Positions 5,907 through 25,177 of a DNA stretch of 36,532 bases are shown piece after piece (the first letter of the stretch is position 1; the number at the start of each line of letters is the position of its first letter). The position numbers were made by a program, and so were the translations under genes. The notes under the pieces are model-generated. The model ran no database searches. It had not been told where the DNA came from and saw only the letters and a list, made by a program, of their open reading frames with translations. This DNA comes from Candidatus Methylomirabilota bacterium (lineage in GTDB: Bacteria > Methylomirabilota > Methylomirabilia > Methylomirabilales > 2-02-FULL-66-22): positions 1,747 through 38,278 of the forward strand of contig JAPLLC010000017.1 of NCBI GenBank assembly GCA_026387775.1. The letters run 5' to 3'.

Positions 5907-7484
5907 ATGCTTGATTGGTTTGTGCGCAATGCCCGGATCGTGGACGGCTCGGGGAATCCCTGGTTCCGCGGCGGCGTGGGAATCCGGGATGGGCGTATCG
6001 TCGCCGTCGGCGACTTGAAGGGAGCCCGGGCGACGCGCGAGTTGGATGCCGGCGACCGGTGCCTGGCGCCGGGCTTCATCGACGCCCACACGCATTCCGA
6101 CTTCTCGCTCCCCACCTTCCCGCGCGGCGAGAGCCGGATCTCCCAGGGGGTCACGACGGAGGTGGGCGGGAACTGCGGCTTTGCCCCGTTCCCTGTGGAT
6201 CCGGATCGGCTCGACCTGCTGCGCGACTCCAGCTCTTTCATCGCCTCGAGCCTCTCGTGGGAATGGCGGTCCGCCGCGGACTTCCTTCGGCACCTGGAAA
6301 GCAAGCCGCTGAGCCTGAACTTCATTCCCCTGGTGGCGCACGGGGCGGTGCGGGTGGCGGTGATGGGCTTCGACCGCCGCCCGCCCAGTGCGGCCGAGAT
6401 GGAGCGCATGCAGGCGCTGGTTGCCGAGGCCATGGAGGCGGGAGCCGCGGGGATCTCTTCGGGTCTCGCCTATGCCCCCGGTATCTTTGCCGCCACGGAG
6501 GAGATGGTGGAGTTGTGCCGGGTGGTCGCCCGGTACGGCGGCATCTACGCCACGCACATGCGGGACCAGGAGGCGGGGCTCCTGGACTCGGTGGAGGAGT
6601 CCCTCCGGGTGGGGCGGGAGGCCGGTGTCCCGGTGCAGATCTCCCACCACAAGGCCATGGGCGAGGCCCACTGGGGGCGGGTGAAGGACAGTCTGGCCCG
6701 GGTGGACGAGGCCAGGGCGGGCGGCCAGGATGTGACCCTCGACGTGTATCCCTACACGGCCGTCAGCACCACCGTGACCCGGTTCCTGCCCGCGTGGACC
6801 CTGGAGGGGGGCGTCGGGGCCCTGCTGGACCGGCTGCGCACGCCGGGCCTGCGGGCGCAGATCCTCCAGGAGGCGAGTGCGGACCGCTCGGTCAAATGGG
6901 GAAACGTCCTGGTGGCCGCCGTGCGAAAGCGGGAGCATGCAGCCTGCGAGGGCATGACTCTCGAGGCCCTGGGGAGGGCGCACGACAAGCCGCCGCTGGA
7001 GGCGGCGGTGGATCTGATCGTGGCCGACGGGGCGCCGTTTCCCATCATCCGCTTCATCATGGCCGAGGAGGACGTCCAGCACGTACTGCGCCACCCCGCC
7101 GTCATGATCGGGAGCGACGGATACGCCATGTCGCCCGCGCTGGGCTCGAAGCCGCACCCCCGGAGCTACGGGACCTTCACCCGGGTCCTGGGAGAGTACG
7201 TCCGCGAGAGACGGGTGCTGTCGCTGGAGGAGGCCGTGCGCAAGATGACCGCTTTCCCGGCCGCGCGCTTCGGCCTCTGGGACCGGGGCCTCATCCGGCC
7301 CGGCCAGGTGGCGGACCTCGTCCTCTTCGATGCCGAGACCATCCGGGACATTGCCACGTTCACCGATCCCCACCAGTATTCCGCGGGCATCGAGTGGGTG
7401 ATGGTGGGCGGGCAGATGGTGTGGCGCGAGGGGAAGGATACCGGGGCGTTGACCGGGCAGGTGCTCCGGGCAAGGACGCGCTAG
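5907..7484 (+). CDS. N-acyl-D-amino-acid amidohydrolase (D-aminoacylase family)
   Basis: This 525-residue amidohydrolase-superfamily enzyme hydrolyses N-acyl-D-amino acids or related N-substituted amides to the free D-amino acid and a carboxylate. The metal-site marks of the D-aminoacylase group are visible: H61 and H63 in GFIDAHTHSD, C90 in EVGGNCGF, a His in IYATHMRDQ, a His in QISHHKAMG and the catalytic Asp near residue 404 in MIGSDGYAM. The C-terminal beta-sandwich closes with ADLVLFDAETIRD and PHQYSAGIEWVMVGG. GGGAG precedes the ATG. The position behind a peptide-type ABC transporter fits uptake followed by deacylation of D-amino-acid conjugates. A decayed fragment of a second copy lies about 430 bp downstream. 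Confidence 0.92.
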   Translation: MLDWFVRNARIVDGSGNPWFRGGVGIRDGRIVAVGDLKGARATRELDAGDRCLAPGFIDAHTHSDFSLPTFPRGESRISQGVTTEVGGNCGFAPFPVDPDRLDLLRDSSSFIASSLSWEWRSAADFLRHLESKPLSLNFIPLVAHGAVRVAVMGFDRRPPSAAEMERMQALVAEAMEAGAAGISSGLAYAPGIFAATEEMVELCRVVARYGGIYATHMRDQEAGLLDSVEESLRVGREAGVPVQISHHKAMGEAHWGRVKDSLARVDEARAGGQDVTLDVYPYTAVSTTVTRFLPAWTLEGGVGALLDRLRTPGLRAQILQEASADRSVKWGNVLVAAVRKREHAACEGMTLEALGRAHDKPPLEAAVDLIVADGAPFPIIRFIMAEEDVQHVLRHPAVMIGSDGYAMSPALGSKPHPRSYGTFTRVLGEYVRERRVLSLEEAVRKMTAFPAARFGLWDRGLIRPGQVADLVLFDAETIRDIATFTDPHQYSAGIEWVMVGGQMVWREGKDTGALTGQVLRARTR

Positions 7485-7885: not shown

Positions 7886-7911
7886 GGAGGCAGGTCGAGA
7901 CCTAGGCCCGC

Positions 7912-8031
7912 TTCTCCCTCGACGCCGGGCGCGTCCGGGACACGGCTACCGTCGCCGAGCCTCACCGGTACTCCGCGGGCATCGAGTAGGTGATAGTCCG
8001 CGCATCTTTCCGCCGGAGATCAACGGGAATC
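7912..8031 (+). pseudogene. Decayed C-terminal fragment of a second D-aminoacylase-family gene
   Basis: Reading from 7912, VRDTATVAEPHRYSAGIE is followed by TAG at 7987. The intact neighbour has IRDIATFTDPHQYSAGIE at the matching place, where Trp stands at the position of the TAG. After the stop the frame continues VIV and later STGIAG, echoing the DTGALTG near the end of the intact protein. Only the last 40 or so codons are recognisable, with no start. The fragment is either the remains of a tandem paralogue or the end of a displaced gene. The similarity is seen in the sequence; the history is inferred. Confidence 0.75.
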
Positions 8032-12954: not shown

Positions 12955-12962
12955 TCATAAAT

Positions 12963-12981
12963 GGTGTCCGGTACCTTTTTT
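12963..12981. repeat. GGTGTCCGGTACC dispersed repeat, copy 3
   Basis: GGTGTCCGGTACCTTTTTT begins 9 bp after the HAD stop codon and is identical to copy 1 (1663-1681) over GGTGTCCGGTACCTTT. The trailing T-run could also serve as a terminator tail. Confidence 0.65.
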
Positions 12982-13074
12982 CGCCCTGCCGAGATTGCCG
13001 CTTGACAGACGGCCGAGCCCTGCATCAACATCAGGAGATGGGCCGGGTCGAGCAACCGGAAGCATTTGGCCAAG

Positions 13075-23522: not shown

Positions 23523-23870
23523 CTATTCAGGGCAGTCATAGACGTTCCCAGCGATGGTGACGTTCGTTTGATGGTCGCTCTCCAGCGACCCAGTGTGACC
23601 CCCTCGACTGGTAAGATTCGTCACAAGATTGCCGCCCATAGCCGCCGCTTTGTTCTTGAGATCATTTCTCGTTCCCGTCTCGAGATCCGCGTCCGAGGTA
23701 TAGTGTCCGCCGAGAAAGTCGCCCTGAGTCACAGTAGCTTCCCCCAGGAACCTGCATGCTTTCCCTGGCTCCGAAGTCGAGAGTCTCACGCGCTCCGCCC
23801 CCGGTGTAACTTGGATGGCAACACATCCCGACAGCAATAGTGCACCGACCAACAAGCTGATAGCGTTCAT
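23523..23870 (-). CDS. DUF4156-type lipoprotein
   Basis: This 115-residue protein has a lipoprotein signal (MNAISLLVGALLLSGC, lipid-anchored Cys16). It continues with the DUF4156 pattern: GAERVRLS near the start, CRFLGEATVTQGDF in the middle, then LKNKAAAMGGNLVTNL and a final VYDC. Members are small envelope lipoproteins of unknown function, in which two cysteines (here CRF and YDC) are often conserved. GGGAG precedes the ATG at 23870. An attC-like site follows its stop by 3 bp, so the gene looks like an integron cassette. Confidence 0.85.
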   Translation of the reverse strand: MNAISLLVGALLLSGCVAIQVTPGAERVRLSTSEPGKACRFLGEATVTQGDFLGGHYTSDADLETGTRNDLKNKAAAMGGNLVTNLTSRGGHTGSLESDHQTNVTIAGNVYDCPE

Positions 23871-23954
23871 TGAATCTCCCGTACTGGGCACTTCGGGCGC
23901 GGCGAGCGCGGGCTGGCCGTAGTGCTTCTGCCCACAATTACGGTGACGTATCGC

Positions 23955-24151
23955 CGGTCCCCCGGACCGCCACACCCAACCCTTCGGTTGGGTACCCGAC
24001 GCCTATCGCCTGCACCCACCCTGCGGGCGGGTACCCGATGCCGGCTCGCCCTTACCCCGGGTCGGTCCGCTCAGAGAGCGGGCCTCCGTACCGGCGGGTA
24101 CCCAGCCAGCGGCTGGGTGCGGCTCGCCGGGTACCCATCCCCGGGATGGGT
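23955..24151. repeat. Cluster of ACCC...GGGT hairpins with co-varying stems
   Basis: Four palindromes share an ACCC...GGGT frame and an adjoining GGTACC. Their stems are ACCCAACC/GGTTGGGT (24-base-scale site at 23974-23993), ACCCACCC/GGGCGGGT (24014-24032), ACCCAGCC/GGCTGGGT (24100-24118) and ACCCATCCC/GGGATGGGT (24133-24151). Inner bases differ but remain paired (the second only by a wobble in minus-strand RNA). Extra hairpins lie at 23955-23969 (CGGTCC/GGACCG), 24054-24062 and 24064-24084. It is a REP-like or structured-RNA region between the DUF4156 and hydrolase genes. Confidence 0.75.
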
Positions 24152-24234
24152 GTGGCGCGGCGTCTCGGGTCGGCCCGGGGGACCTGAACCTATAAGGTCA
24201 ACGTATACGTCATCGAGTTTGTGTCCGCGTGTAC

Positions 24235-24340
24235 TTAGGAGCCGTTACGAAATAACTTGTCCATTCATTGGAATTTCGTTACGGCTCCTTATGCCGTTTC
24301 CGGAATTTCTCCGGTCAAGTTATTCTTTGACAACGGCTTA
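24235..24340. mobile_element. Short element with terminal inverted repeats (MITE-like)
   Basis: The left end, TTAGGAGCCGTTACGAA followed by ATAACTTGTCC (24235-24262), is matched in reverse by GGTCAAGTTATTC...ACGGCTTA (24313-24340) with a 3-base gap and a few changes. A further internal inverted copy, ATTTCGTTACGGCTCCT (24273-24289), pairs with the left end with one mismatch. No coding frame is present. Its right end supplies the TAA stop of the alpha/beta hydrolase gene. Confidence 0.6.
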
Positions 24341-25177
24341 GCGGGACCACCCGGCCCATCGCCCGCCTTCGACCGCGGCGAGGAACTCGGCGACGTGGAG
24401 GTTGAAGAGCCCCGGTTCTTCGAGATTCGGCGTGTGGCCGCAGGCCGGGAAGAGAACCAGCCCGGCGTGCGGCATCCAGCCGCGCATCACCAGCGAGGGC
24501 TCGACACACGGGGCGTCGCGGTCACCCGCCATGATCAGGGTCGGGACGCGCAGGGCCTTCAGCTCGGCCTCCAACTCGAAGATGGTCTTGCGTTTGGCCA
24601 TCACCTCGCGGGCCAGGTGGGCACACGCGAGGGCATCGTGCTCCCCAGCCTGGCGCAGGAACTCCGCGAAGCCCCGGGGGTCCTTTGCCTTGAAGGACGC
24701 CCGGGTGGGCTGGCGCTCGAAGGCGCGGACCCGGGCCGCGATGCCCTCTCGCTCGAGCCCGGCGGCGGTCGCCTCCTGCGCCTGCAGGAACTGCTCCCGG
24801 TTGACGGGGCCGGCGCCAGCGCCGACGAGGATCAGGCTCCGCGTCATCGCCTCGTGCGCGAGGGCGAAGTCCCGGGCGACGTTGGCCCCCATCGAGCACC
24901 CGCCGAGGTGCACCGGACCCAGCCCGAGGTGCGTCAGCAATTGATGGAGATCCTCGACCAGGAGGGCTTGGGAGTAGTCGCGGGCGGCTTGCGGGACCGT
25001 GGACGGGGAATACCCGCGCTGGTTGTACGTGACCACGCGATACCGCCGGGAGAAGTGCCGGACCTGCGGCTCCCAGGAGCGCAGATCACCGCCGTACTCG
25101 TGGACCCAGACCAATGGGGCGCCCTGGCCGGTCTCCTCCCAGTAAAGCTCCACCCCGTTCACGCTTGCCTTCGGCAT
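24338..25177 (-). CDS. Alpha/beta-fold hydrolase
   Basis: This 279-residue protein has the classic hydrolase order: oxyanion-loop region APLVWVHEYGGDLRSWEPQV, strand motif YRVVTYNQRGYSPS, nucleophile elbow GGCSMGAN (GxSxG Ser), acid Asp in IMAGDRDAPC and catalytic His in PACGHTPNLEEP. A helical cap (about residues 125-200) covers the active site. It cleaves an ester, epoxide, lactone or C-C bond; the substrate is unknown. AGGAGGAGACGCC precedes the ATG. Its stop TAA lies inside the right end of the inverted-repeat element, so the last residues may have been changed by that insertion. No attC is seen between this gene and the DUF6790 gene. Confidence 0.92.
   Translation of the reverse strand: MPKASVNGVELYWEETGQGAPLVWVHEYGGDLRSWEPQVRHFSRRYRVVTYNQRGYSPSTVPQAARDYSQALLVEDLHQLLTHLGLGPVHLGGCSMGANVARDFALAHEAMTRSLILVGAGAGPVNREQFLQAQEATAAGLEREGIAARVRAFERQPTRASFKAKDPRGFAEFLRQAGEHDALACAHLAREVMAKRKTIFELEAELKALRVPTLIMAGDRDAPCVEPSLVMRGWMPHAGLVLFPACGHTPNLEEPGLFNLHVAEFLAAVEGGRWAGWSR

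Follow-up and report, generated by a model that had tools for sequence, protein, structure and literature searches.

A tagless REP-like hairpin, probably mobile and nested in MITE-like elements of a Methylomirabilota bacterium

Two superfamilies of REP sequences are marked by the tags GTAG and CGTC (Di Nocera 2013, PMC3733652); CGTC REPs occur without a transposase, some REPs lie within longer palindromes, and RPE-4 and RPE-6 are themselves short CGTC REPs (PMC3733652), RPEs having a length of ~150 bp (PMC10969869). Intragenic REPs and RPEs are likewise already known (PMC3733652, PMC10969869), and how transposase-less REPs move has been stated as an open question (PMC3733652). Since all of these have been reported, the kind of element considered here is already known; the sequence family of our hairpin, its slot behaviour, the rule of a net gain of 21 bp and its spread among phyla were not found in the papers searched, which were largely open-access ones, and among the matches listed for the GGGTACCC motif there were only primers or unrelated sequences. 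A further point of reference is given by pneumococcal BOX and ERIC, bacterial MITEs with modular hairpins.

The window, by which we mean the whole stretch of DNA analysed (36.5 kb), belongs to a 4.46 Mb bin of 312 contigs from a groundwater bacterium of the Methylomirabilota/NC10. Four palindromes of 23-24 nt, two per strand (Table 1), share the form GGGTACCC-NNCC-loop-GGNN-GGGT, and the GGGTACCC octamer occurs four times in the whole window, each time within one of them. Their inner stems are AACC/GGTT, GCCC/GGGT (with one G.T wobble), AGCC/GGCT and ATCC/GGAT, so that the sequence-only reading, which had described four palindromes with differing but paired inner bases, was right on this point; as to the extent of the feature, the four hairpins stand, but they project as side arms from a single ~313 bp element, termed type A, which is intergenic and lies between a DUF4156 gene and an alpha/beta hydrolase gene. 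A scan with Rfam gave no match in the window, leaving the suggested multi-hairpin RNA without support from that collection, and a tRNA scan of the window found none; long open reading frames across the hairpins were not counted as genes in this GC-rich genome.

Table 1. Positions of the type A element, its parts and the neighbouring genes within the window
Feature	Position	Strand	Basis or remark
DUF4156 protein gene	23526..23870	-	PF13698, E 6e-26; start codon ~50 bp from type A element
Type A element, MITE-like inverted repeat with four hairpins	23922..24234	+	shared ends in 23-copy alignment; fold
Left outer stem arm GGTCCCCCGGACCG	23956..23969		inverted repeat I8, fold
Slot 1, filled: 26 nt, ACCCAACCCTTCGGTTGGGT + ACCC (hairpin 23974-23997); empty form CCTCG	23972..23997	-	copy comparison
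Slot 2, filled: 26 nt, ACCCACCCTGCGGGCGGGT + ACCC (hairpin 24014-24036); empty form TCGTC	24011..24036	-	copy comparison
Central hairpin GGTCGGTCCGCTCAGAGAGCGGGCC, common to types A and B	24060..24084		alignment of A and B copies
Slot 3, filled: GGGTACCCAGCCAGCGGCTGGGT (hairpin 24096-24118); empty form GGGAC; net +21	24094..24120	+	copy comparison
Slot 4, filled: GGGTACCCATCCCCGGGATGGGT (hairpin 24129-24151); empty form CGCGG	24129..24154	+	copy comparison
Right outer stem arm CGGCCCGGGGGACC	24171..24184		inverted repeat I8, fold
Alpha/beta hydrolase gene	24341..25177	-	PF00561, E 2e-21; other side of type A element

Other repeats of the window deserve mention in their own right. A second palindrome, AGGAGCCGTTACGAAAT...ATTTCGTTACGGCTCCT (24237-24289, reaching to ~24343), lies directly against the type A element and against another type A copy (L287), and has about a dozen copies in the sister genome G006. 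Another palindrome-like repeat, AAAAGGTGTCCGGTACCTTT, is present in three window copies (1661-1685, 1784-1808 and 12958-12982), and a 98 bp stretch at the 3' end of an amidohydrolase-like gene (7313-7410) recurs 592 bp on, at 7905-8002, with 74% identity, the latter probably being a decayed duplicate.

The hairpin is abundant well beyond this locus. With copies identified by motif pattern and pairing judged by pair count, GGGTACCCNNCC(n)GGNNGGGT returned 115 strict copies in the 4.46 Mb genome (60 forward, 55 reverse) and the reversed control pattern none, which excludes chance and bears out the expectation of further genomic copies. All six sister genomes searched carry it, with 3 to 21 copies each, whereas it is absent from most of the phylum's other genomes.

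Among 61 distinct 23-mer hairpins, drawn from the source genome and from other genomes, standard pairs fill 98.2% of pair cells (mean of 500 shuffles, 91.8%) and both sides have changed in 30 pair cells (shuffle mean, 7.9), values that none of the 500 shuffles reached in either case; sliding the stem partners abolishes the signal. Covariation, on whose significance the earlier reading had staked itself, is thus present, though nearly all of it sits at one pair: columns 10-18 hold 28 of the 30 double changes (UA 27, GC 15, CG 11, AU 2), and in the source genome alone the same pair reads TA 52, GC 40, CG 10 and AT 4, with three exceptions in 109. The outer four pairs are invariant in the 61 hairpins, in part because the search pattern fixed them, and outside the covarying pair the stem sequence hardly changes, so that the idea that the fold rather than the sequence is read is supported at this single base pair. 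Moreover, the differences seen in the window are differences between slots with inherited types, and independent compensations are therefore fewer than the counts. Inner-pair wobbles on the GGGTACCC strand are G.T in 14 cases and A.C in 2, a strand preference that is only a hint, since most of the G.T come from one inherited slot-2 type.

The outer unit has the hallmarks of a MITE: its ends, GTGCTTCTGCCC...GCGTGTAC, are inverted, it is shorter than 500 bp, non-coding and multicopy (18 left-end matches in the genome), and by folding it forms one long imperfect stem. Its target is CTNAG-like, and 3-nt flank repeats match in some copies only, the window copy being mismatched (GTA left, TTA right). 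No orthologous empty site for this copy was found in the six sister genomes, nor did the source genome yield an autonomous element or transposase with type A ends, the 18 end matches being nearly all known type A copies; in sister genomes, matches to the ends alone lie next to other palindromes and not next to a transposase. From its paired ends and CTNAG-like target we infer that the unit is probably mobilised by a DDE transposase supplied elsewhere.

Type A copies range from those with no slot filled, through several combinations, to the window copy with all four, slots 1, 2 and 4 measuring 5 nt when empty and 26 nt when filled, and slot 3 likewise showing a net gain of 21 bp. At least three element families of the source genome, types A, B and C, hold hairpins in fixed slots. 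Type B shares a core with type A, has different ends and likewise carries its hairpins in slots; in type A, in type B and in two sister species (congeners) each slot keeps its own hairpin type, a regularity more in keeping with a few insertions, after which the outer elements were copied and recombined, than with hairpins inserted anew each time. Type C elements, CAGGCTGCTGAAAAA...GAGCAGCCT, of which the genome has at least 40 (271 candidates), have up to three hairpin slots and measure 123-124 bp when empty and approximately 142-145 bp with one hairpin, 159-164 bp with two and 176-182 bp with three; their slots add +18 to +21, not constantly 21, and their hairpins are paired ~75 bp apart in opposite orientation. 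A type C slot can also carry a different hairpin, TCCGCCTGAGGCGGA, in place of the GGGTACCC hairpin (e.g. L010, L162). Two hairpin pairs were considered as boundaries of a larger element: one (G113 C174) brackets ribosomal protein genes, the other (G098 C51) lies within cbiD, and no transposon is involved in either.

Comparable sites exist in other lineages. A scan of GTDB contigs with the exact pattern gave at least 73 stretches, a lower bound in which single hits per genome may be chance, from Deltaproteobacteria, Nitrospinota, Elusimicrobia, Planctomycetota, Omnitrophota, Syntrophorhabdus and others, the usual form in multi-copy genomes being CG-GGGTACCCATCC-GAA-GGATGGGT-CG; nearly all genomes compared are MAGs. 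The hairpin there occupies other palindromic repeats, for example AAAGGGGG[hairpin]GGGGATT, of which hairpin-free versions exist, and in a Syntrophorhabdales repeat the hairpin CTCCACG-[9]-CGTGGAG has a loop of 9 nt when empty and of 30 nt when filled, both forms occurring in the same locus. Of 85 cases in which the hairpin was removed from between its flanks, 22 fell within the top 5% of local folds, against 4.25 expected.

In several other genomes the hairpin lies in frame within conserved genes, namely those for AspRS, GatB, TruA, chorismate synthase, RecG, GlnE, NAD synthetase, PrmC, CbiD (twice) and CobQ, and, by reading of translations, PcrA/UvrD and DapF; for AspRS, GatB and chorismate synthase, PDB homologues have a gap where the insert lies. 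For AspRS in Deltaproteobacteria and PcrA in Nitrospinota, in genomes other than the source genome, the insertion is absent from relatives: 27 readable relatives have a two-residue, GA-xx-GDL-like AspRS site and a single genome has GA-RGTHPKDGS-GDL, which makes 9 bp in relatives and 30 bp in the bearer (net +21), and in PcrA the distance between shared anchors is 9 bp in two relatives and 30 bp in the bearer. Because the relatives that supply these empty gene sites are 74-80% identical in protein sequence, lengths are comparable and exact bases are not. A third relative has a different palindrome, with 36 bp, at the same place in PcrA; in the PcrA/UvrD gene L407 of genome G106 the unrelated palindrome ATGTCATTCTGAGCGATAGCGAAGAATCT sits exactly where a relative carries the GGGTACCC hairpin, suggesting a landing site common to two unrelated palindromes. 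In one member of the Deltaproteobacteria (G095; L104, L111, L126, L160) the hairpin is accompanied by a co-inserted GGGTCAAGGG repeat, either inside genes such as gatB, aroC and prmC or where such genes begin. A literature search for other repeat-encoded peptides gave no match.

By comparison of copies and relatives, the hairpins are derived insertions at several sites, and all evidence for their movement is comparative, mobility being the probable reading of the filled and empty sites. We consider it likely that the array is an untagged mobile hairpin, similar in kind to REPs and RPEs, nested in MITE-like elements, in which ~27 bp, i.e. the hairpin and two bases on each side, would replace ~6 bp, thereby giving a net gain of 21 bp without target duplication. 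This net gain is common to AspRS, PcrA, the Syntrophorhabdales loop and all four type A slots, and is read from filled and empty sites, from which the chemistry of the replacement is itself conjectured. The four hairpins of the window would then be insertions of such an element in fixed slots at the joints of the type A element, and spread within the genome would since have proceeded mainly as the outer elements were copied and recombined, because slot types stay constant across types A and B as well as sister species. The moving form might be the folded single strand, and paired changes in the stem may have been kept because that folded strand matters for movement or tolerance.

The constancy of +21 is hard to square with random template switching, and the loss of target is hard to square with ordinary transposases, which duplicate their target. 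Template switching at replication, or capture of a small hairpin at a stalled palindrome, with other copies as the source and no dedicated enzyme involved, would be a variant of the mobile-hairpin explanation that supplies its mechanism step, and the lost rather than duplicated target, the often palindromic or G-rich flanks and the unrelated palindrome in the same PcrA site of a sister genome are all what it would lead one to expect; we nevertheless judge it rather unlikely, given that an almost unvarying +21, seen in settings that are unrelated, points to a fixed geometry.

The sequence-only reading had also proposed that the array may be a REP/BIME-type cluster or the target of a REP-type transposase. 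The first proposal survives in its structural part, as short palindromes, more than 100 copies, opposite-orientation pairs and a fold kept over sequence at one pair are all found, and falls short in the link to a RAYT. The search for a RAYT gene did turn up five Y1/RAYT transposase genes in the source genome, three of them (L001, L003, L004) long (~340-360 aa) and with flanks free of this hairpin, but the GGGTACCC sequence was absent from the flanks read at all of 55 Y1 loci (the five of the source genome plus 50 in other hairpin-bearing genomes; 24 genomes), so that the arrangement that defines a REPtron, a RAYT gene flanked by the repeat, was seen nowhere among them, the proposed target of a REP-type transposase is unsupported, and the mover is probably not a linked RAYT. 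A true REP/BIME cluster served in trans by a Y1 transposase from elsewhere in the genome seems improbable as well: Y1 genes occur in 23 of the 30 hairpin-bearing genomes, the hairpins are paired in opposite orientation, and the excess of G.T over A.C is as expected if one strand folds; yet seven of the 30 genomes show no Y1 gene, no Y1 locus has the hairpin in its flanks, the hairpin has neither GTAG nor CGTC as a tag, one inherited slot-2 type accounts for most of the G.T excess, and the loss of 6 bp is not a known outcome of REP or IS200 insertion.

That the hairpins have instead belonged to the MITE from the start and were retained as a terminator or structured RNA, the short slots being deletions, would agree with strong folds and with slot-specific types conserved across species. 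This we find very improbable, as the 5-6 nt of the empty slots are no remnants of hairpin ends, which makes deletion from a filled ancestor unlikely, the same hairpin recurs in unrelated elements, in other phyla and in genes whose relatives are without it, and Rfam does not recognise it. Misassembly of shared repeats or binning of contigs to wrong phyla is scarcely credible, for although the genomes are MAGs in which repeats are often at contig ends, and several hosts come from the same groundwater surveys, the hairpins lie within long contigs, in frame in conserved genes, and their flanks differ in each genome.

More tentatively, and with less confidence than we attach to the nested mobile hairpin, we raise the possibility of a cross-phylum element of ~27 bp with its own movement, which would turn a 6 bp target into a folded unit of 27 bp, always adding 21 bp (seven codons), by way of host repair or of an enzyme not yet described, with palindromes and gene interiors as landing sites. 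Since the movement of transposase-less REPs and of RPEs is an open question, it is of relevance that, for one and the same hairpin, filled sites can be matched with empty ones in non-coding elements, hairpin loops and essential genes, where the constant +21 bp offers a testable molecular signature, and that a palindrome present in several phyla adds seven in-frame codons to genes such as those for AspRS and PcrA.

Set beside the described systems, the hairpin shares with REP, BIME and REPIN sequences (PMC3733652, PMC3116915) a size within 20-40 bp (23-24 nt, imperfectly palindromic), a copy number above 100 (115 strict copies) and units in opposite orientation, slots 1-2 being on the minus and 3-4 on the plus strand and type C hairpins being opposed; some REPs, too, sit in longer palindromes, and CGTC REPs also lack a transposase. 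It differs from them by the absence of an unpaired GTAG or CGTC tag (GGGT, as fixed by the search pattern, precedes the stem in 61 of 61 distinct types, and the CGTC before slot 1 belongs to the outer element, because empty copies carry it too) and of a RAYT link, by the fixed net +21 replacement, by its slots inside MITEs and by one core in several phyla. With RPEs it shares palindromes in frame within conserved genes, absent from relatives, and the lack of a known dedicated transposase; judged by descriptions, it is set apart by its 27 bp against ~150 bp (PMC10969869), by another sequence and by phyla other than that of the Rickettsiales. The GC clusters of yeast mitochondria (GC42, PMC4478555) are likewise tiny mobile palindromes that merge and shuffle by an unknown mechanism, whereas GC42 has 42 nt, is organellar and shows a putative target duplication in place of the target loss seen here. 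The type A element as a whole, a non-coding inverted repeat whose set of internal hairpin modules varies, is in line with BOX and ERIC, except that its hairpin modules are also found on their own, in other elements, in genes and in other phyla.
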